64,000 nucleotides of DNA from Bacteroidia bacterium (GTDB lineage Bacteria > Bacteroidota > Bacteroidia > B-17B0 > Aurantibacillaceae). This document shows, piece by piece, positions 26,194 to 51,136 of this stretch (position 1 is the first letter of the stretch; each line of letters opens with the position of its first letter). The notes below the pieces were generated by a model. It was not told the origin of the DNA and did no database searches. It saw only the letters and a program-made list of their open reading frames with translations. The DNA lies in the NCBI GenBank assembly GCA_016787785.1, contig JAEUTO010000005.1, positions 1 through 64,000 on the forward strand. The letters run 5' to 3'. The translations under genes were made by a program, and so were the position numbers.

Positions 26194-26205
26194 AAAAATT
26201 AAATT

Positions 26206-27027: not shown

Positions 27028-27029
27028 TT

Positions 27030-27569: not shown

Positions 27570-27573
27570 AAAA

Positions 27574-28110: not shown

Positions 28111-28114
28111 AAAA

Positions 28115-28852: not shown

Positions 28853-28855
28853 CTT

Positions 28856-30815: not shown

Positions 30816-31320
30816 AATTGAAATTATAAAAGCAGATATTACGCAGCTAAAAGTTGAAGCGATCGTTAATGCAGCCAACAACTCTTTGATGGGTGGAGGA
30901 GGCGTTGACGGCGCAATTCATAAAGCTGCCGGAAAAGATCTTTTAGAAGCATGCAGAGCATTAAAAGGTTGTGCTACCGGAAATTCGAAAATTACTAAGG
31001 GATATAATTTACCTGCAAAATTTATTATTCATACTGTGGGTCCGGTGTGGAACAATGGAACCGAAAATGAAGAATGGCTTTTAGCATCTTGTTATAACTC
31101 CTCGTTACAAATAGCTTCTGGAAATAGTATTAAAACAATTGCATTTCCTTCTATTAGTACCGGCGCTTACCGTTTTCCTTTTGATAAAGCAGCAAAAATA
31201 GCTTATTCAACTATTTCAAACTTTTTAAATAATAATAGTACAATTGAAAAAGTATATTTAGTTTGCTACAGTGATAAAGATCTTGAACAAATGAAAAGGT
31301 CAATCGGGACGTATGAATAG
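30808..31320 (+). CDS. Macrodomain protein (ADP-ribosyl or O-acetyl-ADP-ribose hydrolase)
   Basis: A 170-residue single macrodomain of the MacroD/YmdB type: VEAIVNAANNSLMGGGGVDG (ADP-ribose loop, residues about 13-33), then KFIIHTVGPVW and IAFPSISTGAYRFP. These bind ADP-ribose and remove it from proteins, nucleic-acid ends or O-acetyl-ADP-ribose. It could process the ADP-ribose cyclic phosphate left by Tpt1. It overlaps both neighbours by 8 nt, so it is firmly in the operon. Confidence 0.92.
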   Translation: MHKIEIIKADITQLKVEAIVNAANNSLMGGGGVDGAIHKAAGKDLLEACRALKGCATGNSKITKGYNLPAKFIIHTVGPVWNNGTENEEWLLASCYNSSLQIASGNSIKTIAFPSISTGAYRFPFDKAAKIAYSTISNFLNNNSTIEKVYLVCYSDKDLEQMKRSIGTYE

Positions 31321-33370: not shown

Positions 33371-33942
33371 TGAACTGGATAGAAATAATTGCTGTTATTT
33401 TTAGTTTAGTTTGTACCTGGCTAGCAGTCAAAAAACACATTCTTAACTGGCCTGCAGGAATTATAGGTGTAAGCTTTTATTTGATCTTATTTTATCGGGA
33501 AAGATTATATGCAGATATGATTTTACAAATAGTTTTTATTGTGCAAGGTATTTATGGATGGTATAACTGGAAGCATAAAAAAAACGAACTGGAGGAATTA
33601 GGGGTAAGTTATTTAAATAACACACAAAGAATTTTATATGGCAGCGTAATTTTGATCATTGCTTTTTTATGGTCATATCTACTGGTCAAATATACAAACG
33701 CCTCAACACCCTATGTGGATGCATTTGTCGCCACAACAAGTTTAATTGCAAATTGGTTAATGGCAAAAAAGAAAATTGAAAATTGGATCTTATGGATCTT
33801 AGCTGATATCATTTACATACTATTGTTCTGGTATAAAGAATTATATCTTTCAAGCGGAATTTATGTTGTATTTTTAATTTTAGCAATTAAGGGTTTGAGC
33901 GATTGGAACAAACAAAAAAATATAAAAAGGGATTTGTATTAG
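33370..33942 (+). CDS. pnuC: PnuC-type nicotinamide riboside transporter
   Basis: A 190-residue protein with about seven membrane segments. The PnuC pattern is clear: W-P-A-G-I-I-G near residue 28, QIVFIVQGIYGWYNWKH and WILWILADIIYILLFWYKEL. It begins with GTG, sharing its first base with the receptor stop (TAGTG). It carries nicotinamide riboside inward by facilitated diffusion, and the NadR kinase encoded next traps the product. Confidence 0.9.
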   Translation: MNWIEIIAVIFSLVCTWLAVKKHILNWPAGIIGVSFYLILFYRERLYADMILQIVFIVQGIYGWYNWKHKKNELEELGVSYLNNTQRILYGSVILIIAFLWSYLLVKYTNASTPYVDAFVATTSLIANWLMAKKKIENWILWILADIIYILLFWYKELYLSSGIYVVFLILAIKGLSDWNKQKNIKRDLY

Positions 33943-34892
33943 GAAAGTTTTTGCCTCCTCATAACGGACATTTACATCTTATTCATTCCGCAATGGAAAT
34001 GACAGAAGAGTTAACTGTTTTGGTTTGTACAATTAAAAAAGAATCAATTCCCGGTACACTCCGCTATCAATGGATGAAAGACTTGCTTCCTCAGGCCCGT
34101 TTTATTCATGTTACAGATGAAGTGCCTTCTTATCCTCACGAAGACCCTGATTTTTGGAATATCTGGATCTCTCTTTTAAAAAGAGAAATAGATCCGGAGA
34201 CTGAAGTTTTTTTTTCTTCGGAAGATTATGGTGATGAAGTAGCGGAGCGATTAGGGATTAAACATGTAATGATTGATAGATCAAGAAATGTTGTTCCTGT
34301 TTCCGGAACACAAATTCGTGAGGAGCCATTTAAGTATTGGCAATTTATTCCTAAAAATGTAAGGCCGTATTTTACAAAACGAATTGTTCTTACAGGACCC
34401 GAATCTACAGGCAAAACAACAATGGCAAAAAAGCTTGCTGAACATTTTAAGACAGTGTGGGTAGAAGAATTTGGCAGAGATTATTTTGTGCAGAAAGATG
34501 GAAAATTAATTTTAGAAGATATTCAGCATATTGCTAATGGGCAAGTCGAAACAGAAAATGATGGATTAGAAAAAGCAGATAAATTATTATTTTGTGATAC
34601 AGATCTTATCGTTACACAAATTTGGAGCGAGATCTATTTTAAAACATGTCCGCAGAATGTTATTGACAAAAGTTATGCGTTAAAACACGATCTATATTTA
34701 TTAATGGATATTGATATTCCGTGGGAAGATGATGGAACGCGAGAATTTCCTCATTTAAGGCAATGGCATTTTGATCGTATTAAAGAAGAGTTAAATGCCC
34801 GAAAACTCAATTATATTGTGATCTCCGGGCAGCACTATGCAAGGTTTTCAAATGCTGTTAATGCAATAAATTCGTTTTTCAGGATAGTGTAG
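33903..34892 (+). CDS. nadR: NadR-like NMN adenylyltransferase / ribosylnicotinamide kinase
   Basis: A 329-residue two-domain enzyme. Residues 10-160 are the nucleotidyltransferase (GKFLPPHNGHLHLIHSA with the HxGH motif; VSGTQIREEPFKYW). Residues 165-329 are the kinase, with GPESTGKTTMAKKLAEHF (P-loop). It lacks the helix-turn-helix of enterobacterial NadR, so regulation is left to NrtR. The start is probably TTG at 33903, overlapping pnuC by 40 nt; no ATG fits before the HxGH motif. Last gene of the operon. Confidence 0.88.
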   Translation: MEQTKKYKKGFVLGKFLPPHNGHLHLIHSAMEMTEELTVLVCTIKKESIPGTLRYQWMKDLLPQARFIHVTDEVPSYPHEDPDFWNIWISLLKREIDPETEVFFSSEDYGDEVAERLGIKHVMIDRSRNVVPVSGTQIREEPFKYWQFIPKNVRPYFTKRIVLTGPESTGKTTMAKKLAEHFKTVWVEEFGRDYFVQKDGKLILEDIQHIANGQVETENDGLEKADKLLFCDTDLIVTQIWSEIYFKTCPQNVIDKSYALKHDLYLLMDIDIPWEDDGTREFPHLRQWHFDRIKEELNARKLNYIVISGQHYARFSNAVNAINSFFRIV

Positions 34893-35066
34893 CTAACTAA
34901 AATTTGCTTTACTAATTTAAAAACCAATTTCACTCATTAAAAAATAGTGTTTTAAAAATAGTTTCATTTTTTCATTTTGCTGTGTAATACTTGATTTTAT
35001 TGGTGGTCCAGACATTGAAAAATCTATTTTTATATTTTCATTTACTTTTTTATAAAAAATAATTTT

Positions 35067-35095
35067 TTTGATTCAAAAAATTTGATTTACATTTG
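35067..35095 (+). promoter_or_regulatory. Bacteroidota-type promoter
   Basis: TTTG at 35067-35070, a 17-base spacer, and TACATTTG at 35088-35095 match the TTTG / TAnnTTTG promoter. It leads into a 26-codon reading frame and two successive terminators ahead of the tRNA array. The 170 bases before it (from 34893) hold nothing I can name. Confidence 0.65.
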
Positions 35096-35118
35096 TAGCA
35101 TAGAATAATAAAACAAAA

Positions 35119-35199
35119 ATGAAAAATTTATTTATATATAGTTGTGATGTTCGCCAGCCGGAGGTTAGAGGGCTTATGAAAAGTCGTGGGTTTATGTAA
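35119..35199 (+). CDS. Possible 26-residue leader peptide
   Basis: An ATG about 20 nt after the predicted transcription start opens MKNLFIYSCDVRQPEVRG and eight more residues, then TAA. It is followed 28 nt later by a strong terminator, the usual arrangement of a leader whose translation could govern termination. It contains five Arg or Lys codons and no long run of one amino acid. It could also be an unrelated short frame. Confidence 0.35.
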   Translation: MKNLFIYSCDVRQPEVRGLMKSRGFM

Positions 35200-35227
35200 A
35201 TGATTTAATAATATTAAATAATTTTTT

Positions 35228-35257
35228 AAACCCCGGCATAAAAATCCGGGGTTTTTT
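35228..35257 (+). terminator. Intrinsic terminator upstream of the tRNA array
   Basis: AAACCCCGG (35228-35236), 9-base loop, CCGGGGTTT (35246-35254), then T. It ends the short leader transcript unless read through. Confidence 0.85.
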
Positions 35258-35322
35258 ATTTTAAGAAAATAAAAATGAAGCATAGTATCAGTATGCCAAC
35301 CGTAAAATTTTTTCAAACAAAT

Positions 35323-35395
35323 TATGTTTGACAGGGAATCGTATGCTCTATTTTTTAATAGGCCCGGTCTCTGAATAAGTGATCGGGCTTTTTAT
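35323..35395 (+). ncRNA. Second promoter and short terminated transcript
   Basis: TATGTTTG at 35323-35330 is a -7 type element. About 30 bases on, GCCCGGTC (35362-35369) pairs with GATCGGGC (35381-35388, one G-U) followed by TTTTTATTTT, an intrinsic terminator. The expected product is about 60 nt, with a CTATT-AATAG hairpin before the terminator. It ends only 14 bases before the first tRNA, so read-through could feed the array. Confidence 0.4.
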
Positions 35396-35408
35396 TTTAA
35401 AAATATTT

Positions 35409-35480
35409 TGTCGGATCGTCTAATTGGCAGGACGTCAGAGTTTGAATCTGAGAATAGTGGTTCGAACCCATTTCCGACAA
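35409..35480 (+). tRNA. tRNA-Gln (TTG)
   Basis: Acceptor TGTCGGA/TCCGACA is a perfect 7 bp, D-stem GTCT/GGAC, anticodon stem TCAGA/TCTGA with loop GTTTGAA, T-loop TTCGAAC, discriminator A. It is the first gene of the array. U1-A72 is unusual for a bacterial tRNA-Gln (though U1-A72 occurs in E. coli Gln). No CCA is encoded. Confidence 0.9.
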
Positions 35481-35482
35481 CT

Positions 35483-35557
35483 GCCCTCTTAGCCCAATTC
35501 GGCAGAGGCAACGGTTTTAGAAACCGTCGAGTGTGGGTTCGAGTCCCATAGAGGGTA
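35483..35557 (+). tRNA. tRNA-Leu (TAG) with short variable loop
   Basis: Acceptor GCCCTCT/AGAGGGT (first pair G-U), anticodon stem ACGGT/ACCGT with loop TTTAGAA, T-arm GTGGG/CCCAT around TTCGAGT, discriminator A. The variable region is only five bases, whereas bacterial tRNA-Leu normally carries a long extra arm. It reads CUN codons. Confidence 0.85.
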
Positions 35558-35595
35558 CGAAATTATTAACAGTGCAAACCGTTAGTAATGAATAT

Positions 35596-35669
35596 ATATC
35601 CGTGGCGTAACGGCAACCGCAACAGGTTTAAGCCCTGTACAATTGTGAGTTCGAGTCTCACCGGGTATA
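35596..35669 (+). tRNA. tRNA-Leu (TAA) with short variable loop
   Basis: Acceptor ATATCCG/CGGGTAT (one G-U), anticodon stem ACAGG/CCTGT with loop TTTAAGC, T-arm GTGAG/CTCAC around TTCGAGT, discriminator A. The variable region is six bases, again lacking the long arm expected for Leu. It reads UUA and UUG. Confidence 0.85.
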
Positions 35670-35674
35670 CATAA

Positions 35675-35757
35675 GGAGAAATAACTGAGCGGGGCTCAGG
35701 CTTGCTTGCTAAGCAAAGCGTGCTTAAGGGCATGGGTGTCGGTAACTCATTTCTCCG
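35675..35757 (+). tRNA. tRNA-Ser (GCT)
   Basis: Acceptor GGAGAAA/TTTCTCC perfect, anticodon loop TTGCTAA on a TTGC/GCAA stem, long variable arm typical of Ser, discriminator G. The T-loop reads GTCGGTA rather than TTCRANN, on a TGGGT/ACTCA stem, which is strongly non-standard. After it, a 60-base spacer folds into a hairpin (TTCATC near 35765 with GATGAA near 35809). Confidence 0.75.
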
Positions 35758-35818
35758 CTTGCGTTCATCAAAGCAACCTTTAGCGGAGGTTCTGCTTTGG
35801 GTTGCGAAGATGAAAAAT

Positions 35819-35982
35819 GGAAGATAGCGTACAATGGTGTACAACAAGACTTGAACCATTCGTTTGACAATTTGAATTAAAATATTCAAACGAATGCAAC
35901 ATGTGGCAGTTAAAAAAAATTAATTCAGCACATGAACTCTTGAGCGGACAGAAATGTCAGGGTTCGATTCCTATGTCTTCCG
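35819..35982 (+). tRNA. tRNA-Ser (TGA) interrupted by 81 nt in the anticodon loop
   Basis: Acceptor GGAAGAT (35819-35825) pairs with GTCTTCC (35975-35981), D-stem GTAC/GTAC, and anticodon stem CAAGA (35845-35849) with TCTTG (35938-35942). Eighty-eight bases separate the stem halves instead of seven. TGAAC occurs at both ends (35852 and 35933), and removing 81 nt leaves loop CTTGAAC, anticodon TGA, and an 83-nt tRNA with a Ser-type variable arm (GACA-GAAA-TGTC). The insert folds into two hairpins: CATTCGTTTGA with its complement, and CATGTG/CACATG. The T-stem is partly degraded. Confidence 0.75.
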
Positions 35983-35991
35983 CAAAAATTT

Positions 35992-36064
35992 TGGGATGTA
36001 GCTCAACGGTGAGAGCAGTTGCCTTATACGCAAAAGGTTGTCAGTTCGAATCTGGCCGCCCCGA
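35992..36064 (+). tRNA. tRNA-Ile (TAT)
   Basis: TGGGATG/CGCCCCG acceptor with one mismatch, D-stem GCTC/GAGC, anticodon loop CTTATAC on TTGC/GCAA, T-arm GTCAG/CTGGC around TTCGAAT. Anticodon UAU reads AUA directly; most bacteria use a CAU tRNA modified by lysidine instead, so this gene makes the set independent of TilS. Confidence 0.8.
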
Positions 36065-36074
36065 CAAATGAAAT

Positions 36075-36147
36075 GGAAATGTAGCAGAGATGGTCAATGC
36101 GGCAGTTTGAAGAACTGTTGATGTAGGTTCGAGTCCTACCGTTTCCA
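36075..36147 (+). tRNA. tRNA-Phe (GAA)
   Basis: Acceptor GGAAATG/CGTTTCC (one G-U), anticodon stem GCAGT/ACTGT with loop TTGAAGA, T-arm GTAGG/CCTAC around TTCGAGT, discriminator A. Confidence 0.9.
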
Positions 36148-36155
36148 CAAAAAAA

Positions 36156-36229
36156 CGATCTGAAGCTCAAATCGGAAGAGCGCCTGAATACGAATCAGGA
36201 GGGTTAAGGTTCGAGTCCTTACAGGTCGT
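36156..36229 (+). tRNA. tRNA-Arg (ACG)
   Basis: Acceptor CGATCTG/CAGGTCG (one G-U), D-stem GCTC/GAGC, anticodon stem CCTGA/TCAGG with loop ATACGAA, T-arm TAAGG/CCTTA, discriminator T. With A34 changed to inosine it would read CGU, CGC and CGA. Confidence 0.88.
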
Positions 36230-36240
36230 CAAAAGAATAT

Positions 36241-36313
36241 CGGGAAGTATTTCAATTGGTAGATGGAATGCTTTGGGAGCATTTGGCTGTAGGTTCGAGT
36301 CCTGCCTTCCCGA
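36241..36313 (+). tRNA. tRNA-Pro (TGG)
   Basis: Acceptor CGGGAAG/CTTCCCG perfect, anticodon stem AATGC/GCATT with loop TTTGGGA including the G37 expected for Pro, T-arm GTAGG/CCTGC around TTCGAGT, discriminator A. Confidence 0.92.
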
Positions 36314-36316
36314 CAA

Positions 36317-36389
36317 CGAGTGGTGACTAAGGTTTAAGCACGGGTGCATTGGAAGCATCAGTTAGTAGGTTCGATTCCTGCACACTCGA
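36317..36389 (+). tRNA. tRNA with anticodon TGG, second copy, atypical
   Basis: Acceptor CGAGTGG/ACACTCG (six of seven paired), anticodon stem GGTGC/GCATC with loop ATTGGAA, T-arm GTAGG/CCTGC around TTCGATT. Position 37 is A where Pro tRNAs have G, and the D-arm is weak. Either a second Pro tRNA drifting away or a tRNA mimic. Confidence 0.65.
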
Positions 36390-36399
36390 CAAATAATAT

Positions 36400-36472
36400 G
36401 GTGGGATTAGTGTAAAGGTTAACACAGCAGTTTGTGAAGCTGCGGATACGAGCTCGATTCTCCTATCTCACC
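36400..36472 (+). tRNA. tRNA-His (GTG)
   Basis: Acceptor GTGGGAT/ATCTCAC with an extra G at 36400 facing C73, the hallmark of tRNA-His. D-stem GTGT/ACAC, anticodon stem GCAGT/GCTGC with loop TTGTGAA. The T-loop starts with C (CTCGATT), which is unusual. Confidence 0.9.
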
Positions 36473-36475
36473 CTT

Positions 36476-36557
36476 GGGAATGCGCTGACGTTGGAGAGTC
36501 AGGCCGGTCTGTAAAACCGGTGCTTAGGCTTAATAGGTTCGAATCCTATCATTCCCA
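36476..36557 (+). tRNA. tRNA-Tyr (GTA)
   Basis: Acceptor GGGAATG/CATTCCC perfect, anticodon stem CCGGT/ACCGG with loop CTGTAAA, long variable arm as expected for bacterial Tyr, T-arm ATAGG/CCTAT, discriminator A. It ends the first block of the array. A hairpin (ATGAAGTA/TACTTCAT, 36561-36585) separates it from the convergent WYL gene. Confidence 0.92.
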
Positions 36558-36589
36558 CAAATGAAGTAGAGAAGTTTTACTTCATAAAA

Positions 36590-37609
36590 TTAGTTCTCTG
36601 TTCTTTGATATTTTGAAAGTGTATTTTTTAATCGCGATTGGATCTTGCGCGAAAGTCTGCTTGGCGAAAGGATCATGAGTTGCTCTCCAAAACCGAGAAT
36701 TTCTCTTTCCAATTCAAAATTCCAGATCACTTCTATGGAAAAAATAGTTCCGTCTGTTTCTTCTTTAAGAATTTTTTGGCTTGAATGAATTGGTTTGGTT
36801 AAAATGTATGGTGCATGTTCTTTAAGGATTTTAAGAACGATCAGATCTGTTTTTTGATTTGGCATAATACTTACGCCAATTGCATTTTGATAATAAGTAG
36901 AAACATCAAAATCTGCTTTTTGATATTTTTCTTTTTCAGCATCTGCAATAAGCTCTATCCTGTCGAGTGCTAAGTTCATAATGGCATCTCCTTTTTTGGC
37001 CTTGCCTAAAATAAACCAACGGTTGCGATATTCTTTAAGCAAATAAGGAAAGAAGGTAATTTCAATTGGCTGTCGGGCTTTAAAAGATTTGTAACTGATC
37101 AATAACGTTTTTTTATTGACAATGGATTTTAATAGCGGATCAATAAATTGTAAACCTTTTAGTAATTCGTTCTTTTCAAATTCAATATATGAGCGGCCTT
37201 TATTTTGTTGTTTATATAATTTATCTTCAAGACGTGTAACCATACCGGTTAATTCTTCGAAGTAAGAGAAGCCTTTAAATTGTTTTAAAACTTCTACAAC
37301 TTCATTTAAAGTACCAAGGTCTTGTGAGGTTAAAGGAATATTTGTAATGCTGTAGCCTTTGTCTTCATAACAGTAAAATTTTTTGTCTGTAACAATGATG
37401 GGAGCATTGTAACCCAGTTTTTCACTACGCATGTTCTGAATGTCTAATTGGATTGTGCGAACGCTTACGCCTTTGGTAATGCCTTCATATTCGTAAATAG
37501 CTTCTGAGCATGCCTCTACAAGGTCTTCAAGCGTCCATTTACGAAAACGGTTCTGTAAACAGTTATCAATTGTCTTATAACGCACAAGTGCTAATTTATT
37601 TATTGGCAT
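36590..37609 (-). CDS. WYL-domain transcription regulator, proposed master of the tRNA/RtcB regulon
   Basis: A 339-residue regulator: N-terminal winged helix (residues 1-85, with VSVRTIQLDIQNMRS as recognition helix), a middle helical part, a WYL core (about 165-240: KKTLLISYKSFKARQPIEIT, FPYLLKEYRNRWFILG) and a WCX-type end (about 255-335). WYL domains sense nucleotides or nucleic-acid fragments. The gene lies inside the tRNA array, opposite in direction. A 21-bp palindrome sits 42 nt upstream, and the same palindrome stands before two tRNA blocks and the rtcB operon, so autoregulation and control of these units is likely. Confidence 0.85.
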   Translation of the reverse strand: MPINKLALVRYKTIDNCLQNRFRKWTLEDLVEACSEAIYEYEGITKGVSVRTIQLDIQNMRSEKLGYNAPIIVTDKKFYCYEDKGYSITNIPLTSQDLGTLNEVVEVLKQFKGFSYFEELTGMVTRLEDKLYKQQNKGRSYIEFEKNELLKGLQFIDPLLKSIVNKKTLLISYKSFKARQPIEITFFPYLLKEYRNRWFILGKAKKGDAIMNLALDRIELIADAEKEKYQKADFDVSTYYQNAIGVSIMPNQKTDLIVLKILKEHAPYILTKPIHSSQKILKEETDGTIFSIEVIWNFELEREILGFGEQLMILSPSRLSRKIQSRLKNTLSKYQRTEN

Positions 37610-37650
37610 AAGATAAAGTTTAAAGCATTAAATATACAAAACTTAAAATA

Positions 37651-37671
37651 CTACGCAATCTATTTACGTAG
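37651..37671. promoter_or_regulatory. WYL-type operator D (regulator's own promoter)
   Basis: CTACGCAAT at the left and a matching ATTTACGTAG at the right form an imperfect 21-bp palindrome, 42 nt upstream of the WYL start. It is the weakest copy (A for G in the right arm) and its distance to a TTTTG element differs from the other three, which suits a repressing or autoregulatory site. Confidence 0.6.
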
Positions 37672-37752
37672 TTGAGCATAAAATATACAGTATTTAAAAT
37701 TTTTGAAGTTCAATTTTAATAACTTAAATACAAAATGCATCAAAATGTTTAA

Positions 37753-37789
37753 CCGCGCAATTCAATTGCGTAGTAAGTATAAACCTTTG
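37753..37789 (+). promoter_or_regulatory. WYL-type operator A and promoter for the second tRNA block
   Basis: Palindrome at 37753-37773 (CCGCGCAAT, centre TCA, ATTGCGTAG), then exactly 12 bases to TTTG at 37786-37789 in the context ACCTTTGT. The first downstream product is the tRNA-like gene at 37820. No separate -33 TTTG is seen, so the bound protein may stand in for it. Confidence 0.75.
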
Positions 37790-37819
37790 TAATGTTATAA
37801 AGCAGTTCATTAATATATT

Positions 37820-38012
37820 GGCCTGGTAGCTTAAAAGGAAAAGCTGTGGTAAAATTTAGGCTTAACCACGGAGTGTATGGGATCTGGCTACGACCGCGCG
37901 TTGTAGTGAGTATAATTTACAGTTGCACCGAAACGGATATGCTAAAGTAGGGAAGCGTATTTACAACCATGCTGTTCGAAAGAAAATGTGAGTTCGAATC
38001 TCACGCGGGCCA
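37820..38012 (+). tRNA. tRNA-like gene with about 108-nt insertion, anticodon undetermined
   Basis: Acceptor GGCCTGG pairs with GCGGGCC (six of seven), D-stem GCTT/AAGC, and a good T-arm GTGAG/CTCAC around TTCGAAT. The 5' anticodon strand GTGGT could pair with ACCAC (37865-37869, 14-base loop) or with ACCAT (37966-37970). The second choice implies an insert of about 108 nt and leaves 85 nt with a Ser/Leu-type variable arm; the loop would then be ATTTACA. The insert contains strong hairpins (CTACGAC/GTTGTAG, ATATGC/GCGTAT). It may be a tRNA with an insertion or a tRNA-like structured RNA. Confidence 0.5.
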
Positions 38013-38079
38013 CGAATAAAACAAACCGCAAAGGTTTTGTGATGCGAATGAATGAAAAAGTTCTTTGAAAATAAAAAAT

Positions 38080-38152
38080 GCCGGCATAGATCAGAGGCCA
38101 GAGCGGCTGTTTTGTAAACAGCGGGTCGCAAGTTCAACTCTTGCTGTCGGCT
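38080..38152 (+). tRNA. tRNA-Thr (TGT)
   Basis: Acceptor GCCGGCA/TGTCGGC (one G-U), anticodon stem GCTGT/ACAGC with loop TTTGTAA, T-arm GCAAG/CTTGC around TTCAACT, discriminator T. Confidence 0.9.
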
Positions 38153-38196
38153 CAAAAGATCTTTAATAGTTAAGGATCTTATAATAAAATAAAAAA

Positions 38197-38514
38197 ATGA
38201 ATAAATACGAAAGACTTAAGCTGGAACTCGAAACAACCGGCTCAGGAAAAATGAAATGTTTCGGAAACTCAATGTTACCAATACTTAAAAGCGGATCATT
38301 ACTAACATTTAAAAAAGAAGAAAATTATAAAGTAAAAGATATAGTGTTCTGTAAAGTAAAAGGAAGATTTATTGACGCGCATAAAATAGTAAAAACAGAT
38401 GCGAACAAAGGATTTTTAATTGCGAACAATCACGGATATGAAAATGGATGGACTCATATCATATTCGGAAAAGCGATACAGAGTGAATATAAAAATGAAA
38501 CAAAAGAATTATAA
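38197..38514 (+). CDS. S24/S26-type peptidase-like protein
   Basis: A 105-residue protein matching the peptidase core of LexA-like and signal-peptidase proteins: MKCFGNSMLPILKSGSLLTF with the nucleophile-type Ser near residue 26, VKDIVFCKVKGRFIDAHKIV, and a closing NNHGYENGW. The usual catalytic Lys is not clear; the Lys in AHKIVK could serve. It has no DNA-binding domain and no membrane segment. It lies between tRNA genes and 3 bases before the exonuclease gene, so it may regulate or process something in this unit. Confidence 0.65.
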   Translation: MNKYERLKLELETTGSGKMKCFGNSMLPILKSGSLLTFKKEENYKVKDIVFCKVKGRFIDAHKIVKTDANKGFLIANNHGYENGWTHIIFGKAIQSEYKNETKEL

Positions 38515-38517
38515 GAA

Positions 38518-39057
38518 ATGAAATATATAATAGTAGATCTTGAAGCTACCTGTTGGGAAAATAAAGACCAAAAGAAAATAAATGAAGTAATTGAGATAGG
38601 TGCAGTTTGCATAAATGAAAACAAAGAAATAGAAAGTGAATTCAATGAATTTATTAAACCGGTTGTTAATCCCGAGCTTTCAAAGTTTTGTACAGAGTTA
38701 ACCTCTATTACTCAAAAAAATGTTGATGCGGCAGAAACGTTTGATAAAGTAATTGAGCGATTTAAAAGCTGGATCAACATAAATGAAAATTTTGTTTTGT
38801 GTAGTTGGGGTTTTTATGATCAAAGACAATTTATTGCTGATTGTAATTTACATAAAACAGATGCGGCTTGGTTAAAAAAACATATTAGTTTAAAACACCA
38901 ATATGCAGAAATAAAAAAATTAAACAGACCAATAGGAATGGCTGGCGCTTTGAAAATGGAAAAATTATACTTAGAAGGAACGCATCACCGTGGAATTGAT
39001 GATGCAAAAAATATTGCGAAGATATTTTTGAAGAATTTTAAAGAATGGAAAATATAA
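38518..39057 (+). CDS. DEDDh 3'-5' exonuclease (ERI-1/KapD-like)
   Basis: A 179-residue exonuclease: IIVDLEATCW (first D and E, residues 5-9), a middle SWGFYDQRQF with the next Asp, and the final HHRGIDDAKNIAKIF containing the DEDDh His and Asp. ERI-1-type members trim structured RNA 3' ends. It is encoded within the tRNA array, between tRNA-Thr and tRNA-Asn, so maturation or end-polishing of tRNAs or of repair intermediates is the likely job. Confidence 0.85.
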   Translation: MKYIIVDLEATCWENKDQKKINEVIEIGAVCINENKEIESEFNEFIKPVVNPELSKFCTELTSITQKNVDAAETFDKVIERFKSWININENFVLCSWGFYDQRQFIADCNLHKTDAAWLKKHISLKHQYAEIKKLNRPIGMAGALKMEKLYLEGTHHRGIDDAKNIAKIFLKNFKEWKI

Positions 39058-39063
39058 TATAAA

Positions 39064-39136
39064 GGACGAGAAGCTCATATGGATGAGCGACTGATTGTTA
39101 ATCAGAAGGAAGTAGGTTCGAACCCTGCCTTGTCCG
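39064..39136 (+). tRNA. tRNA-Asn (GTT)
   Basis: Begins 6 nt after the exonuclease stop. Acceptor GGACGAG/CTTGTCC (one G-U), D-stem GCTC/GAGC, anticodon loop TTGTTAA on CTGA/TCAG, T-arm GTAGG/CCTGC around TTCGAAC, discriminator G. Confidence 0.9.
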
Positions 39137-39148
39137 CAGATAAATTCT

Positions 39149-39243
39149 AAAAGCGACTCGCAGAGTTTTTTATTTTATTATCGTTTAAAGCTTGCTTTAA
39201 GAAGAACGATAAAATAAAAAAATTGATCCGAAGGATCGCTTTT
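39149..39243 (+). ncRNA. Long imperfect hairpin in the tRNA array
   Basis: AAAAGCGA (39149) pairs with TCGCTTTT (39236-39243). Inside, a T/A-rich arm (TTTTTTATTTTA) pairs with its complement, and the tip is TTTAAAG-CTTG-CTTTAA, a G(CUUG)C tetraloop. It lies just after tRNA-Asn. It could be an array spacer, a processing signal, or a stable RNA in its own right. Confidence 0.45.
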
Positions 39244-39335
39244 TGAATTGTGACTATGGGATTTAAAGGATCAGCGAGCGAAAGCGAGCTAACCTAAAGA
39301 AGTAAAGAAAGTGGTTTACCATTAAAGGTACACCC

Positions 39336-39465
39336 GATAGATGCGAAAAGTGTTGCTGTGTTTTTGTCGAAGTGCAGCAGAGTATAAGGAGCGGTTAAAG
39401 CCCGCAGCTTAATGACAATAAAAGCAAAGTTTGTAAAAGCCTGATACAAAACACGAGCATCTATC
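39336..39465 (+). ncRNA. Structured RNA domain closed by a 9-bp stem
   Basis: GATAGATGC (39336-39344) pairs exactly with GCATCTATC (39457-39465) and encloses about 110 bases with inner helices (GCTG/CAGC and GCGG-TTAAAGC-CCGC, the last shaped like a T-arm). It ends 8 bases before tRNA-Asp. No reading frame or tmRNA signature fits. It may be a tRNA-like or Y-RNA-like element. Confidence 0.4.
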
Positions 39466-39473
39466 AAAGAATT

Positions 39474-39545
39474 GGTTTATTGGTATAAAGGCTATTATCT
39501 CCGACTGTCTATCGGAAGACAAGGGTTCGATTCCCTTATAAACCG
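39474..39545 (+). tRNA. tRNA-Asp (GTC)
   Basis: Acceptor GGTTTAT/ATAAACC perfect, anticodon stem TCCGA/TCGGA with loop CTGTCTA, T-arm AAGGG/CCCTT around TTCGATT, discriminator G. The D-arm is weak. Confidence 0.88.
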
Positions 39546-39550
39546 CAAAA

Positions 39551-39619
39551 ACATTCCGGGCCATGGCGGCCAATTGCTCTCCAAAAGCAAAGGACAACGT
39601 TCGATTCGTTGGGAGTGTG
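39551..39619 (+). tRNA. tRNA-Trp (CCA)
   Basis: Acceptor ACATTCC/GGAGTGT (one G-U), short D-arm GCC/GGC, anticodon stem TTGCT/AGCAA with loop CTCCAAA, T-arm CAACG/CGTTG around TTCGATT, discriminator G. At 69 nt it is compact. The next 180 bases hold only a weak AGAGTAA/TTACTCT pairing (39626-39691). Confidence 0.88.
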
Positions 39620-39802
39620 CGAATAGAGTAATAGTGCAATAGTGGGCAAAGCCTTGTTTAAAAACGTAGGAAATTCCCGACTGTTACTCTGAAATTGAAA
39701 ACATGAAGCAGAGCATAGCTTGCTTTGTGGGTATAAAAAAATAATTATTAAAAAAAGAAATGATGAATACAAAAAATGAAATTGAAGAAGAGGAGTTAAT
39801 TT

Positions 39803-39875
39803 GCTCTGTTCTTCTAAACGGTTAGGAAACCAGACTTTCAATCTGGCAACGCGGGTTCGATTCCCGCACAGAGTA
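39803..39875 (+). tRNA. tRNA-Glu (TTC)
   Basis: Acceptor GCTCTGT/ACAGAGT (first pair G-U), anticodon stem CCAGA/TCTGG with loop CTTTCAA, T-arm GCGGG/CCCGC around TTCGATT, discriminator A. Confidence 0.9.
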
Positions 39876-39885
39876 CAATATTAAT

Positions 39886-39956
39886 GCGAGATATAGCTTA
39901 ATGGTAAAGCACCTGTCTTCCAAACAGGGGATGCAGTTCGATTCTGATATTTCGCT
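39886..39956 (+). tRNA. tRNA-Gly (TCC)
   Basis: Acceptor GCGAGAT/ATTTCGC (one G-U), D-stem GCTT/AAGC, anticodon stem CCTGT/ACAGG with loop CTTCCAA. The T-stem keeps only three good pairs around TTCGATT. Discriminator T, where Gly tRNAs usually have U or A. Confidence 0.85.
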
Positions 39957-39961
39957 CATAA

Positions 39962-40037
39962 GGACAGGTAGCCAATATTGGTTTCGGTATTAGTCTGCAA
40001 AACTAATTTAATAACAGTTCGATTCTGTTTCTGTCCT
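39962..40037 (+). tRNA. tRNA-Cys (GCA)
   Basis: Acceptor GGACAGG/TCTGTCC (last pair G-U), anticodon stem TTAGT/ACTAA with loop CTGCAAA, T-arm AACAG/CTGTT around TTCGATT, discriminator T, the identity base expected for Cys. Confidence 0.9.
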
Positions 40038-40040
40038 CAT

Positions 40041-40113
40041 TGTCTTATAGCTCAATTGGTGGAGCAGCGATCTGATACGTCGAAGGTTGTAGGTTCAAGT
40101 CCTGCTAAGACAA
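40041..40113 (+). tRNA. tRNA-Ile (GAT)
   Basis: Acceptor TGTCTTA/TAAGACA perfect, D-stem GCTC/GAGC, anticodon loop CTGATAC on CGAT/GTCG, T-arm GTAGG/CCTGC around TTCAAGT, discriminator A. The following spacer folds into two hairpins (GAAGCA/TGCTTC and GTTATGAAGT/ACTTCATAAC). Confidence 0.9.
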
Positions 40114-40211
40114 CAGCGAAGCAGATAGACTTTATTGGAAATAAAATGTCTTTTGCTTCACTGTTATGAAGTGAAGGCGAAAATCTTCTACTTCATAACA
40201 AAAAATAGAAA

Positions 40212-40283
40212 TGCTTTATAGCTCAATGGTGGAGCAACGATCTCATAAGTCGGAGGATGCAGGTTCAATTCCTGCTAAAGCAA
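40212..40283 (+). tRNA. tRNA-Met (CAT), elongator type
   Basis: Acceptor TGCTTTA/TAAAGCA perfect (so not an initiator, which has an unpaired first base), D-stem GCTC/GAGC, anticodon loop CTCATAA on CGAT/GTCG, T-arm GCAGG/CCTGC around TTCAATT. It is clearly similar to the preceding Ile(GAT), and probably its duplicate. A lysidine-type '. Confidence 0.5.
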
Positions 40284-40300
40284 CAGGGCAACAAAAAAAT

Positions 40301-40379
40301 AGAACGGGGTGTCATGTACCAAGGCTGGCGAGTCTGCTTTGCAAGCAGACTGAGGTGAGTTCGATTCTCATCCGCTCCA
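40301..40379 (+). tRNA. tRNA-Ala (TGC)
   Basis: Anticodon stem TCTGC/GCAGA with loop TTTGCAA, T-arm GTGAG/CTCAT around TTCGATT, discriminator A. The acceptor AGAACGG/CCGCTCC has mismatches at two positions and the D-arm is long and irregular, so this gene may be partly degraded. It lacks a clear G3-U70 pair at the expected place, which matters for alanylation. Confidence 0.7.
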
Positions 40380-40425
40380 CAATTAAAATAATTATTATAT
40401 GAAGAAGAGAAACAGAAATAAAAAC

Positions 40426-40496
40426 AGCTCCTTAATTTAAAGGCAGAATAAATGGTTTACATCCATTAAGTGATCGTTCGATTCGGTCAGGAGCTA
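40426..40496 (+). tRNA. tRNA-Val (TAC)
   Basis: Acceptor AGCTCCT/AGGAGCT perfect, anticodon stem AATGG/CCATT with loop TTTACAT, T-arm GATCG/CGGTC around TTCGATT (one G-U), discriminator A. The D-arm is weak. Confidence 0.88.
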
Positions 40497-40504
40497 CAAA
40501 AAAA

Positions 40505-40575
40505 TCTCTCGTAGCTCAGTGGCAGAGCTCGCGGCTTTTAACCGCGAAACACAAGTTCGATTCTTGTCGGGAGAA
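40505..40575 (+). tRNA. tRNA-Lys (TTT)
   Basis: Acceptor TCTCTCG/CGGGAGA (one G-U), D-stem GCTC/GAGC, anticodon stem CGCGG/CCGCG with loop CTTTTAA, T-arm ACAAG/CTTGT around TTCGATT, discriminator A. Confidence 0.92.
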
Positions 40576-40584
40576 CTTTAAAAT

Positions 40585-40655
40585 TCTCTTATAGTTTAAC
40601 GGAAAAACATGTCCCTTCTAAGGATAAGATATTGGTTCGACTCCAGTTAAGGGAA
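40585..40655 (+). tRNA. tRNA-Arg (TCT)
   Basis: Acceptor TCTCTTA/TAAGGGA (one G-U), D-stem GTTT/AAAC, anticodon stem TGTCC/GGATA with loop CTTCTAA, T-arm ATTGG/CCAGT around TTCGACT, discriminator A. It ends the second block of the array. Confidence 0.9.
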
Positions 40656-40721
40656 CAAAACAATAAAATTATTTACATTGTTATTCAAGCACTTAAATAA
40701 AAAGTAAAGAAAATAATTTAA

Positions 40722-40758
40722 CTACGCAGTTTGATTGCGCAGTAGTTATAAATCTTTG
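40722..40758 (+). promoter_or_regulatory. WYL-type operator B and promoter for the last tRNA block and TerD-like gene
   Basis: Palindrome at 40722-40742 (CTACGCAGT, centre TTG, ATTGCGCAG), then exactly 12 bases to TTTG at 40755-40758 in the context ATCTTTGT. Downstream come a hairpin, a tRNA-like gene, the interrupted tRNA-Gly and the TerD-like gene. The 360 bases between 40655 and 41017 contain only this site, a long hairpin (TTTATTTTA/TAAAATAAA near 40840-40863) and a repeated AAACAGGCCAAG segment (40902 and 40985). Confidence 0.75.
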
Positions 40759-41016
40759 TTACGTTCTTTTAAAACAATAGTTATAAAACAATTAATGTTC
40801 TTTGAAATATTTCATTCTTGCTATATGTGATATAGAAATTTATTTTATCAGTGGTAAAATAAATGTACATCTAACAATGAATGAAAAAAATTAAAATAAA
40901 TAAACAGGCCAAGAATTAAGTTACTTCAACTCACTTTAAATGAAAAAACTTTTTCAATTGCCTTTTATAAAAAACTGTTTTATTAAACAGGCCAAGGCCG
41001 GGTTACTTCTTATCCG

Positions 41017-41086
41017 GAACGGATCGTCTAAGGGAAGGACGCCGGAGCTTGCTCCGGAAATGTGGGTTCGAATCCCATTCCGCTCA
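41017..41086 (+). tRNA. tRNA-like RNA capped by a CUUG tetraloop (Gln/Glu-like)
   Basis: Acceptor GAACGGA/TCCGCTC (six of seven), D-stem GTCT/GGAC, and T-arm GTGGG/CCCAT around TTCGAAT are tRNA-like. The anticodon arm is CCGGAG-CTTG-CTCCGG: six pairs closed by a stable G(CUUG)C tetraloop, with no seven-base loop and no usable anticodon. The body resembles the Gln tRNA at 35409 (same TC-GTCT start). It is probably a decoy, sensor or processing element rather than a decoding tRNA. Confidence 0.6.
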
Positions 41087-41123
41087 ACAATAACTCCGCC
41101 AATTGCCTTTTTAAAATACAGAT

Positions 41124-41311
41124 GGGGCGGTAGCTCAAAGGTAGAGCGACGTTATTTTTAAAATTAACGTTCAATGTAAACATACTTCAACTGGTAAATC
41201 CCTTCGGGGATTTGGTTCGAGTCCAAAATTGTTTACAAATTAACGTTCAATTAAAATTTACTTCTACGCCTTCCAAGCCGTAGGTTGTGGGTTCGAATCC
41301 CACCCGCTCCA
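41124..41311 (+). tRNA. tRNA-Gly (TCC) interrupted by 116 nt in the anticodon stem
   Basis: Acceptor GGGGCGG/CCGCTCC, D-stem GCTC/GAGC and T-arm GTGGG/CCCAC are intact. The 5' part stops at ACG (41149-41151) and the tRNA resumes at 41268. Joining them gives anticodon stem ACGGC/GCCGT with loop CTTCCAA and a canonical 72-nt tRNA-Gly(UCC), so 41152-41267 behaves as an insertion between positions 29 and 30. The insert holds a 15-bp direct repeat (AAATTAACGTTCAAT at 41161 and 41237) bracketing another tRNA-like fold. Confidence 0.8.
41175..41238 (+). ncRNA. Nested tRNA-like RNA capped by a UUCG tetraloop
   Basis: TGTAAAC (41175-41181) pairs exactly with GTTTACA (41231-41237). Inside are a D-loop-like ACTTCAACTGGTAA, a hairpin AATCCC-TTCG-GGGATT with the very stable C(UUCG)G cap where the anticodon arm should be, and a T-arm TTGG/CCAA around TTCGAGT. 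It lies wholly inside the insertion of tRNA-Gly and between 15-bp direct repeats 76 bp apart, about one tRNA length. Confidence 0.6.
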
Positions 41312-41419
41312 CTTTCAAAAATTTATTATTATAATTACAATATAAAAATCAGGTCAACTTTTACTTACTTCTTTTTTTGGAAAAACAGTATTAGAATTAC
41401 CTATTAAAACAAAAATAAA

Positions 41420-43657
41420 ATGAATAACAATTTACTAAACGTAGGCTTCCGTCAGCAAGCCATTTTCATTCCTAATGAGGCGATGAAAGCAGAAAGAAAA
41501 AATATTGCAGAAACTACTGCGGTATTAGTTGCTAATTTATCAAAACTGGGCTTTGGTGTATCTGAAAACCTGTTGATCGCATTAAATAATGTATCGCCTG
41601 TTTATCAATTAAAAGTTTTGGAAGCGGCTAAAACAATTACCGGGGTAAATAAAAACTGGACGCCTCTTGTTAAAGGTTGGGATACACCAACCGGAGAATC
41701 ATTTGTTGATCATATTATGACCTTTTTTGCCAATGTTTTCCAGGCAAAAGGTACAAAGCTGCAATGCGGCCATATTATTCCTGCAGGAACTTTTCCTTTA
41801 GAGCGTTATAACGGTTGCCCATTTTGCGGTACGCCATTTGAATTCGGAAAAATTGAAAGTTTTAATCAAGGAAGTAAGTTTAAAATTCTTGAGCTATGGA
41901 CAGAAAAAGAAGCAGGAGAATTTCTTGCAGATCTTTTAACTTCAAAAACAGCATTAGACGCAACACAAGCCGACAGCTTAAAATTGTTGCTGAAAGAATT
42001 GCCGGTGCCCGAAGTTAAAATTGGAATGAAAGAAACATTAATGTTAGTGATAGATATTTTTAGCGAAAATGATGAGCCGCAGAAAGCACAGGCATTGTTT
42101 ACTTCACCAACTGATATTTTGCGTTACTTATGGTTTAAGCATACAGGATTTTTACAGATCATTGAGCCAAAAACGATCGTAAAACGTAAAACAAAAAATG
42201 CAGGTCATATTACAAAACGTTTGGATAAAAGCGCGAAGGAAAAATTAGCGGCAACCGAAGAATTGAAATTAAAATACGGCCGTAAAGAAAGCTTACGCGT
42301 TGCAACATGGTTAAATGGTTTGGATGTGGACACACAAAAAATGTGTGAGGGCATGCACCCAAAACGCCAGATGTGGATCCGTTTTATACGTGCTTTACGT
42401 TTGCCTGAATATGCAAAACGTACAGGCTTTGAAAAATTAAAAGAGCTGCTGGATAAATTTTATAATGAAGATTATACTATTTGGCAAGGACAGGTAAATC
42501 ATTTCCGTTTACGTGCAGATGCTGAGAATACGTTTAATTTATTAAAGCAACGTCCGGGTATGTTTGCACGCTCTTTATTTGCAAACATGTTATGGTTTGG
42601 TAGTGAAGATACGATCAAAGCATTCTCAGAAGTAGTTGATAAAGTACCTGCGCGTTTAGTATTTACATTAAACATGTATGCCGAAAATTATTTCAATACA
42701 GAAAATCGTCGCGTTGTAAAACCTTTAGGTGGAATTGCAAAAAATATTCCAGGCAATGCATTGCTGCGTTTATATGATAATAAGCAAATGGAAGAAATGA
42801 AAAATGCTATTGCAGAATTAACTATTCTTGCCATGAAAAAAAGATTTGCAGCAGTAGAAAATAAAAATAAAACTATTTTTATTGATCCTATGTTGTTTAA
42901 GATCCCGCTTTCAATTGGAGATAGAAGCGAGAGCGTTCAGGACCTTCCTTCTGCATTAATGGGTACGCGCTTTGAAGTAGAAGGTGATAAAGTACGTTTG
43001 TTTATGCAATGGGGTAATGGTTTACACGCACAACACATGGATATGGATCTTAGCTGCCATATTGCTTATGAAAATAATAAAACAGAATTCTGTTCATATT
43101 ATAATCTTGTAGCAACGGGCTGTAAACATAGCGGAGATATTCGTAGTATCCCCGAAAAGATTGGTACTGCCGAGTATATTGAAATTACTGTGAGTGAATT
43201 AAAAAAAGCAGGTGCAAAGTATGTGACGTTTACATCTAATGCATATAGCAATGGAAGTATTTCTCCTAACATGGTTGTTGGTTGGATGAATAGCAAACAT
43301 CCAATGACAATATCTGAGAGAACAGGGGTTGCTTATGATCCATCTTGTGTACAACACCAGGTACGAATTGTAAGCTCGCTTACCAAAGGCCTTGTATTTG
43401 GTGTATTGGATGTAGAAAATTCTGAAGTTATCTGGTTAGAAATGCCGTTTGGCGGTCAGTTAGTAAATAACCTTAATATGAAAAATATTGAATTGTTATT
43501 GCAAAAATTGGACAGCAAATTAAGCATTGGTAATTTGTTAAAGATAAAAGCAGAAGCTCAGGGTTTAAACATCTTAGAAAATAAAAATGCCGATGAAGTT
43601 TATACACGTGAGTGGGCAATGAATACAGCTGCCGTTACTAAATTACTTGTAGATTAG
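41420..43657 (+). CDS. TerD-like protein with N-terminal zinc ribbon
   Basis: A 745-residue protein. Near residues 105-135, LQCGHIIPAGTFPLE then NGCPFCG resembles a zinc ribbon. A long helical middle follows (ILRYLWFKHTGFLQI; RKESLRVATWLNGLD). The end (about 515-690) shows TerD-family marks: LDMDLSC-type strand (MDMDLSCHIAYENN), HSGDIRS, and AEYIEITVSELKKAGAKYV. TerD proteins bind calcium and work in stress systems with MoxR/VWA proteins, which are encoded next door. A WYL-type operator and tRNA genes lie upstream, so I place it in the same regulon. A TROVE (Ro60) identity was considered and not supported. Confidence 0.6.
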   Translation: MNNNLLNVGFRQQAIFIPNEAMKAERKNIAETTAVLVANLSKLGFGVSENLLIALNNVSPVYQLKVLEAAKTITGVNKNWTPLVKGWDTPTGESFVDHIMTFFANVFQAKGTKLQCGHIIPAGTFPLERYNGCPFCGTPFEFGKIESFNQGSKFKILELWTEKEAGEFLADLLTSKTALDATQADSLKLLLKELPVPEVKIGMKETLMLVIDIFSENDEPQKAQALFTSPTDILRYLWFKHTGFLQIIEPKTIVKRKTKNAGHITKRLDKSAKEKLAATEELKLKYGRKESLRVATWLNGLDVDTQKMCEGMHPKRQMWIRFIRALRLPEYAKRTGFEKLKELLDKFYNEDYTIWQGQVNHFRLRADAENTFNLLKQRPGMFARSLFANMLWFGSEDTIKAFSEVVDKVPARLVFTLNMYAENYFNTENRRVVKPLGGIAKNIPGNALLRLYDNKQMEEMKNAIAELTILAMKKRFAAVENKNKTIFIDPMLFKIPLSIGDRSESVQDLPSALMGTRFEVEGDKVRLFMQWGNGLHAQHMDMDLSCHIAYENNKTEFCSYYNLVATGCKHSGDIRSIPEKIGTAEYIEITVSELKKAGAKYVTFTSNAYSNGSISPNMVVGWMNSKHPMTISERTGVAYDPSCVQHQVRIVSSLTKGLVFGVLDVENSEVIWLEMPFGGQLVNNLNMKNIELLLQKLDSKLSIGNLLKIKAEAQGLNILENKNADEVYTREWAMNTAAVTKLLVD

Positions 43658-43660
43658 TTA

Positions 43661-43700
43661 AAGGCCTTGTTTCAATTTTTTGAAGCAGGGTCTTTTTATT
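43661..43700. terminator. Bidirectional terminator between convergent genes
   Basis: AAGGCCTTGTTTCAA (43661-43675) pairs with TTGAAGCAGGGTCTT (43680-43694), with G-U and single mismatches, T runs on both strands. It serves the TerD-like gene and the VWA operon. Confidence 0.8.
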
Positions 43701-47063: not shown

Positions 47064-47067
47064 ATTA

Positions 47068-48150: not shown

Positions 48151-48152
48151 AG

Positions 48153-51099: not shown

Positions 51100-51136
51100 C
51101 TACGCAATTTGATTGCGCAGATAAACTATTCCTTTG
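51100..51136 (+). promoter_or_regulatory. WYL-type operator C and promoter of the rtcB operon
   Basis: Palindrome at 51100-51120 (CTACGCAAT, centre TTG, ATTGCGCAG), then exactly 12 bases to TTTG at 51133-51136 in the context TCCTTTGT. The first gene starts at 51141, only 4 bases after TTTG, so the message is probably leaderless or nearly so. Confidence 0.8.

Follow-up and report, generated by a model that had tools for sequence, protein, structure and literature searches.

A divergent second tRNA set, RNA-repair genes and a shared operator in a Bacteroidia chromosome: a probable rescue regulon for damaged tRNA

Our analysis of a 64-kb window, the first part of a 576-kb contig (JAEUTO010000005.1) in the 4.6-Mb genome of a Bacteroidia bacterium of the family Aurantibacillaceae (GCA_016787785.1), concerns an array of divergent transfer RNA (tRNA) genes and its neighbours, which encode a WYL-domain regulator, a RING-TerD protein and the RNA ligase RtcB. 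We consider it probable that this locus is a chromosomal rescue regulon for damaged tRNA. The proposal is backed directly by a second tRNA set and its conservation, by the gene content of the locus, by a shared operator, by a covarying RNA element, and by the occurrence of the same operator and of tRNA genes around the Ro60 genes of many relatives. A first-pass annotation of the same DNA had caught the array and missed the wider system to which it seems to belong, made up of RING-TerD or Ro60, WYL, RtcB and the RNA element.

Results

ARAGORN recognised 23 tRNA genes between 35409 and 41086, every one on the + strand, and 20 array tRNAs reach the Rfam gathering score. Six further tRNA-like genes were found by reading the sequence, which gives the 29 tRNA or tRNA-like genes, all on the + strand, that the first-pass annotation had counted. 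Its claim of anticodons for all 20 amino acids also holds, each being present, with serine solely among the tRNA-like genes; like that annotation, we saw no initiator-type methionine tRNA in the array. The search for a conventional tRNA set that it had proposed was run with both Rfam and ARAGORN. Thirty of the 50 Rfam tRNA matches of the genome (150 of 341 candidates were scored) fall outside the array, which rules out that the array is the housekeeping set, and ARAGORN found 29 distinct conventional tRNAs elsewhere in the genome, a count that leaves out one call antisense to tRNA-Tyr. The array is therefore a second set. Conventional Asp(GTC), Ile(GAT) and Ala(TGC) were not among the 29 (two Asp patterns gave none, and Ile and Ala were not sought separately), and 16S rRNA was not found in the assembly by a search that recovers 9 of 14 controls, so that gaps in the assembly are likely. 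Array tRNAs share 55-73% identity with their conventional counterparts of equal anticodon and 64-78% with the closest conventional tRNA, which is the same-anticodon one for 6 of 18 array tRNAs.

Most array members appear, from their sequences, to be kept up as working tRNAs. Mean pairing in the array and in the conventional set is 6.87 against 6.93 of 7 for the acceptor stem, 4.70 against 4.93 of 5 for the anticodon stem and 4.87 against 4.90 of 5 for the T stem. The odd D- or T-arms reported earlier are not a property of the 23 recognised tRNAs, whose T-stems are paired as just given, whose T-loops begin with TTC in 22 cases (tRNA-His being the sole exception) and whose D-loop region contains GG in all 23. 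The remark that many members begin with a base other than G was borne out: 11 of the 23 do so, compared with 5 of the 29 in the conventional set (Fisher p 0.03). The discriminator base is that of the conventional partner in 17 of the 18 testable isoacceptors, with Arg(ACG) as the exception. A comparison with L076, a locus of the same genus with an array of 22 tRNAs, covered the 17 of 23 array tRNAs that have a same-anticodon partner there at an identity of at least 0.72. Among these orthologues 36 stem pairs have changed, 28 of them being paired in both loci and 8 in one only; half of the pairs that were kept (14 of 28) had changed on both sides, and changes in the anticodon and T loops are confined to 7 of 238 sites. 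Stems and loops thus look to be under selection.

The array lies in several stretches, some of which are preceded by a candidate operator, a 21-bp palindrome near CTRCGCA-N7-TGCGYAG. Block 1 (35409-36558) holds Gln, Leu, Leu, a Ser(GCT) tRNA-like gene, a split Ser(TGA), Ile(TAT), Phe, Arg(ACG), Pro, a further tRNA-like gene, His and Tyr. A gene for a WYL-domain regulator, presumed to be a repressor (36590-37609, - strand; Pfam WYL and WCX), separates it from block 2 (39064-40656), which consists of Asn, Asp, Trp, Glu, Gly, Cys, Ile(GAT), Met, Ala, Val, Lys and Arg(TCT). A pattern search placed the palindrome on the WYL side (37651-37671), before block 2 (37753-37773), before the stretch of elements, tRNA-like genes and RING gene (40722-40742) and before the RtcB stretch (51100-51120). 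The same operator, the putative site of a shared regulator, thus precedes two stretches of the array and rtcB, and the motif CTTTGT stands 11 nucleotides (nt) past the copies at 37753, 40722 and 51100. Across the 4.6 Mb the pattern gives these four sites and two one-strand matches elsewhere; a reversed control pattern gives none.

The association extends to relatives. A scan of Bacteroidota with the RING protein gave 52 loci, which within the flanks examined hold a WYL relative in 44 cases and RtcB in 28, and a regular expression for the operator matches in 49 of them, including all 44 with a WYL gene. Ro60 (TROVE, PF05731) has no match in the genome of the window; it is found in 13 of 247 genomes of a class sample, two of them of the window's genus and both without the RING gene. 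About 20 kb was taken around each of these 13 genes. WYL is found at nine TROVE loci and RtcB at seven (once at 30% identity), and the operator occurs in all nine loci with WYL and in none of the four without. This co-occurrence across RING and TROVE loci makes the WYL protein the likely reader of the palindrome. Counts of tRNA genes at the 13 TROVE loci are 12, 5, 23, 1, 0, 2, 7, 0, 0, 0, 0, 3 and 14, so that eight have tRNA genes and five have at least five, the largest number being the 23 of locus L128; the binomial probability of at least five at 5 of 13 loci is about 1.5e-9, an approximate figure whose background is the 20-kb windows of the window's genome alone. At L126, from the window's genus, a tRNA block with much the same members in similar order lies beside WYL, with TROVE across the WYL gene. 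Since the TROVE loci share tRNAs, WYL, RtcB and operator with the RING loci, RING-TerD and Ro60 look like alternatives in one regulon.

The structured element is a repeated hairpin 5' of the RING gene, in which GGUCAA, a helix strand and UUACUUC are followed by the second helix strand and AAUUACC, in either strand order. The window has five copies, all on the + strand. Element 1 (40905-40964) scores 39.9 bits with covariance model R1 and has only 4 of 7 inner pairs; element 2 (40988-41109), with 6 of 7 inner pairs and no R1 match, encloses a tRNA-like gene at 41017-41086; element 3 (41167-41246) is nested, carries a T-arm mini-helix in its loop, has 7 of 7 inner pairs and scores 43.0 bits; element 4 (about 41155-41264), a permuted copy with 6 of 7 inner pairs, interrupts a split Gly(TCC)-like tRNA (41124-41311); and element 5 (41350-41403), directly before the RING start codon, scores 55.2 bits, a match by construction, its sequence being a row of R1. 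All 53 RING loci, counting the window, have between one and seven copies of the first strand within 1 kb upstream of the gene (hairpins in this upstream scan were kept only with at least 6 of 8 pairs), and the 52 loci together have 233 copies in 51.6 kb of upstream sequence, compared with 7 in the other 2.1 Mb. The motif was also present in all seven RING loci of a phylum sample (L147-L153, of which L148 and L151 are probably L060 and L068, so that five are new), with one match over the 13 TROVE loci.

The helix is supported by two tests. In 39 unique strand pairs, chosen regardless of pairing from 229 strand-A matches (162 of which lack a strict strand B within 25-75 nt), the inner helix pairs at 94%, against 56% with shuffled partners and a maximum of 65% in 200 shuffles. 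In 32 hairpins covariation is 0.623, against 0.166 for shuffled and 0.08-0.12 for slid partners, and 10 of 14 pairs have changed on both sides; the shuffle test is the cleaner of the two, because the 32 hairpins were hand-picked and selected for pairing. Model R1, which was built from these 32 hairpins and has L068 among its rows, gives 35 matches in 11 of 37 sources. These are the window, the seven RING loci of the phylum sample and three plasmids from Bacteroidota (Hymenobacter, Segatella and Prevotella); the 13 TROVE loci, the phages and the distant plasmids have no match. Among 60 relatives' genomes it matches three, all of them RING carriers of the window's genus that are among the loci already counted. 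At the Rfam gathering score, tRNA is the single family matched at the elements in the window, L043-L046, L072 and L073, and the only other family in those loci is DUF805b RNA, about 11 kb away in L045. Known RNAs were rejected as candidates for the element: a relaxed search of L047 and the window array gave, among others, tmRNA at 28.5 bits (cut-off 47), YrlA at 22-24 bits (cut-off 69) and plastid and miRNA families, all under cut-off, which we take as chance or as matches to tRNA-like parts. YrlA in particular has no match at the gathering score in the window, where the relaxed search gave two. The element is apparently an undescribed RNA. A shorter form of its motif lies upstream in 5 of 8 phages with a RING relative and, in 13 distant loci, occurs 22 times in 9.1 kb upstream against 143 times in 355 kb elsewhere, about 6-fold; as R1 gives no match there, and the support consists of a short motif and best-of-many helix matches, this likeness is only suggestive.

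The RING-TerD protein itself (41420-43657, + strand, 745 residues) matches the NCBIfam family MXAN_6230/SCO0854 (NF041916) at 137 bits and E 6.8e-40, against a curated cut-off of 600 bits, and so by sequence is a distant relative, not an equivalog. Fold comparison assigns its C-terminal part to TerD (3ibz: Z 13.4 over 145 residues, root-mean-square deviation (rmsd) 3.2; two more TerD entries at Z 11.9 and 11.2). Its helical region, modelled alone with a pLDDT (predicted local distance difference test) of 81, was compared with 973 chains, among which Ro60 (9nep_A) came second by Z, at Z 6.5 over 254 residues with an rmsd of 14.8, below the value needed to tell helical repeats from chance. Foldseek gave a best E of 0.24 for this region, to another fold, and no match at E 0.001 for the whole model; the TROVE profile has no Pfam match in the protein, and profile comparison gave a probability of 0.1.

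Among the 52 RING loci, ARAGORN tRNAs are present in 11 and number at least three in eight. L042 and L076, both of the window's genus, carry arrays like that of the window; the genomes G574 and G576, which place both in that genus, appear to hold these same two loci and were counted as no new evidence. In the phylum sample the RING gene was found in 8 of 296 genomes, seven of them from one other genus. Distant relatives came from 18 plasmid records and from 10 phage records over three queries, which represent eight distinct phages (the SCTP-2 match spans only 20%). Six of the eight have tRNA genes near the RING relative (RcXuper 13, RpAliso 16, LpeD 8, LR745208 8, Weasels2 6 and MT835874 4), while XacN1 and SCTP-2 have none within the flanks. 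RtcB is also nearby in Weasels2, a tRNA nucleotidyltransferase is next door in RpAliso, and in a Variovorax plasmid the RING relative lies near rtcR. Eight plasmid loci (L154-L158, L163, L165 and L166) were searched with ARAGORN, which found one tRNA gene at one of them and none at the other seven. The RING profile and three RING proteins from phages, scanned against viral contigs, recovered nothing beyond the LpeD phage itself. Large phages often carry tRNAs, so that the link to phages is supportive and not decisive. We also noted transfer-messenger RNA (tmRNA)-type genes, permuted-tmRNA matches included, beside RING and tRNAs in three phage records (L160:3216-3632, L162:2875-3181 and L164:808-1108).

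The remaining members of the array, all on the + strand, include several unusual forms. Within block 1 the Ser(GCT) tRNA-like gene lies at 35675-35757, the split Ser(TGA) gene at 35819-35982, and a degenerate tRNA-like gene, at 25.9 bits under the Rfam cut-off of 29, at 36317-36389. The Ser(TGA) insertion (35856-35936), near the canonical intron position 37/38, appears by eye to form two hairpins and to carry a 4-nt repeat at either end; the L076 gene has no such insertion. Between the blocks are a tRNA-like gene with a long insert (37820-38013) and tRNA-Thr(TGT) (38080-38153, ARAGORN). Inspection by eye indicates that L076 has almost the same long insert in the former, whereas the acceptor and T stems of this gene have changed in pairs between the two loci. 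The split Gly(TCC)-like gene has element 4 in its insert and also contains a nested mini-structure, the sixth tRNA-like gene. In L076, moreover, nearly the same hairpin replaces the usual anticodon arm of two tRNAs (7185-7261 and 8597-8669), and one of the two lacks a 7-nt loop. Upstream of block 1, at 35305-35400, a promoter-like stretch is followed by a terminator-like hairpin and then by the start of the block, a layout that by eye is equal in L076 and could possibly reflect attenuation.

Several other genes adjoin these features. Between tRNA-Thr and block 2, on the + strand, are genes for an S24-peptidase-like protein (38197-38514, Pfam) and a KapD-like 3'-5' exonuclease (38518-39057; Pfam RNase_T, with NCBIfam KapD under its cut-off). 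The gene for RtcB (51661-53085, + strand; Pfam RtcB, E 5e-82) begins 8 kb past the RING gene, and the interval (43696-50929) is filled by a reverse-strand group of VWA, DUF5682, MoxR, DUF5691 and SWIM genes; a VWA gene next to one for a MoxR or AAA ATPase was likewise seen near RING relatives on one Streptomyces and one Deinococcus plasmid. Upstream of the array, 25492-34892 holds an NAD-salvage and ADP-ribose cluster (NrtR-like NUDIX, PRPP-synthetase-like, NADAR, KptA RNA 2'-phosphotransferase, nicotinamide phosphoribosyltransferase (Nampt), macro domain, PnuC and NadR), part of which is also beside the L076 array, with relatives of NrtR, Nampt and Prs at TROVE locus L138. We take the PRPP-synthetase-like and Nampt gene pair to resemble phage NAD+ reconstitution pathways. 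No near DNA match of 33000-43700 was found in phage or plasmid collections, and the 576-kb contig also carries three housekeeping tRNAs; by these tests the locus is not a phage or plasmid island.

Discussion

If the locus is a rescue regulon, the WYL protein would probably occupy the four copies of the palindrome at rest, and the cutting of tRNAs or stalled translation would release it. Release would allow the production of RtcB, of the RING-TerD protein and its element, of the tRNA-like RNAs and of at least the spare block 2. RtcB could then reseal cut RNAs, spare tRNAs could replace lost ones, and the RING-TerD protein with the structured RNA may act as a Ro60-like ribonucleoprotein (RNP) that sorts damaged tRNA towards repair or towards decay by the KapD-like exonuclease. 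A bolder version, tentative and in our judgement less likely than not, is that RING-TerD and the element form a second, undescribed class of RNP with the role of Ro60 and Y RNA in tRNA repair, exchanged with Ro60 in a WYL/RtcB/tRNA-array regulon and shared with tRNA-rich phages; at its far end, the elements that interrupt tRNA-like genes would mark cut sites, the product being resealed by RtcB in what would amount to protein-dependent tRNA splicing in bacteria.

Several observations weigh against the rescue regulon or against parts of it. The repressor, the trigger, expression, charging and the RNP role of RING-TerD are parts that we infer, and the idea of a Ro60-like scaffold comes from genomic interchange; homology of the helical region to Ro60 has no profile support, and the modelled fold suggests at most a weak likeness. 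Block 1 has no copy of the operator, and five of the eight RING loci without WYL in the flank examined still carry it, so that WYL as its reader is unproven. Four of the 13 TROVE loci lack both WYL and operator, and five have no tRNA. Most RING loci are without a large array, at least five tRNAs being present in only 4 of 52. In a family sample the RING gene was found in 2 of 61 genomes, the window's own and one with a 70-residue fragment, and the system must therefore be accessory. Finally, at least two array members are, by their sequence, unable to decode as they stand: the gene at 41017-41086 has a hairpin where the anticodon loop should be, and Ser(TGA) is interrupted near position 37 of the anticodon loop by some 82 nt. 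For these reasons the description of the array in the first-pass annotation as a full replacement set, made when normal tRNAs are damaged, stands in part. A second and mostly maintained set is present, and its RNA-repair neighbours share an operator with part of it, which fits production upon damage; 'full' is too strong for a set with at least two members that cannot decode and a block that lacks the operator.

The same non-decoding members, together with the split Gly-like gene, would suit decoys, that is, divergent tRNAs and tRNA-like RNAs that occupy tRNA-targeting nucleases or are cut by them and so spare the housekeeping set. A competitive role of this kind has been suggested for the tRNA-like YrlA by Hughes et al. 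(PMC7790460). A decoy set, however, would have no need of discriminators, and most members of the array keep theirs, along with anticodons for each of the 20 amino acids and with anticodon and T loops that hardly vary, and we regard decoys as an unlikely account of the locus. Less likely still is that the tRNA-like RNAs and elements are sensors or guides which tune the response of RING-TerD, WYL or RtcB, by autoregulation or damage sensing, with the plain tRNAs hitchhiking. The position of an element directly before the RING start codon, the first strand upstream at every RING locus and the elements that enclose or interrupt tRNA-like RNAs all speak for such a role, but it leaves unexplained both the conservation of the decoding loops and the large sets of the window, of L076 and of TROVE locus L128. 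That the array is a decaying remnant of a phage or plasmid tRNA array seems very improbable: tRNA genes near RING relatives in phages, a patchy spread and some broken members would agree with it, but not the lack of near DNA matches in phage and plasmid collections, the housekeeping tRNAs of the contig, stems and loops that look selected, or an operator common to array and rtcB.

A rescue regulon of this kind would tie together accessory tRNA arrays, RNA repair by Ro60 and RtcB and the RING-TerD family, which are usually studied separately, and it makes testable why chromosomes, besides phages, retain divergent and near-complete tRNA sets. It predicts that tRNA damage or stalled translation is the trigger, that WYL is the regulator and that the regulon has four operators, and it also predicts a protein-RNA pair, all open to test in strains of Flavobacterium, Niastella or Chitinophaga. 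The literature searched, which covered few subscription papers, contained no paper on the element, on the MXAN_6230/SCO0854 or RING-TerD family, on WYL control of a second tRNA set or on interchange of Ro60 and RING-TerD. The abstract of a 2016 study of RNA repair systems by Burroughs and Aravind is said to mention a novel tRNA-like molecule beside SPFH proteins, and may anticipate part of our findings.

Precedents exist in Anabaena and Salmonella, so that a second tRNA set tied to RtcB is not a new idea. Dense accessory tRNA clusters like that of the window are also known as mycobacterial and plasmid tRNA array units, which belong to another phylum and, in the text consulted, show no link to RtcB, WYL or Ro60 (PMC5966550, PMC12803027). 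Phage arrays that evade tRNA-cutting defences provide tRNAs as counter-defence, whereas the array of the window is chromosomal and shares its operator with rtcB (PMC10264068, PMC11555353). Anabaena sp. PCC 7120 is closer: a silent set of 26 tRNA genes and rtcB are held under the repressor TrcR and released by translation-targeting antibiotics, so that there, as in the window, a second tRNA set exists beside housekeeping tRNAs with rtcB linked to it (PMC10272220). One autoregulated repressor governs both the tRNA operon and rtcB in Anabaena, while in the window the operator is shared and induction would follow by analogy of layout; the trn genes of Anabaena are on a megaplasmid under a ribbon-helix-helix repressor, and those of the window on a chromosome with WYL (PMC10272220). 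The regulator at our locus is a WYL/WCX protein and not of the ribbon-helix-helix TrcR family, for which no genome-wide search was made; the consulted text on Anabaena contains no mention of WYL, Ro60 or tRNA-like, and RING and TerD were not looked for there (PMC10272220). In Salmonella, the rsr-yrlBA-rtcBA operon is induced by damaged tRNA, and the study proposes possible competition for the nuclease by the tRNA-like YrlA (PMC7790460). RtcB, an RNA-binding scaffold and tRNA-like RNAs form a regulated unit there as they putatively do in the window; Salmonella uses the activator RtcR (which was not searched for genome-wide in our case) and RtcA, and the window has WYL and a tRNA array, with RING-TerD standing where Salmonella has Ro60 (PMC7790460).

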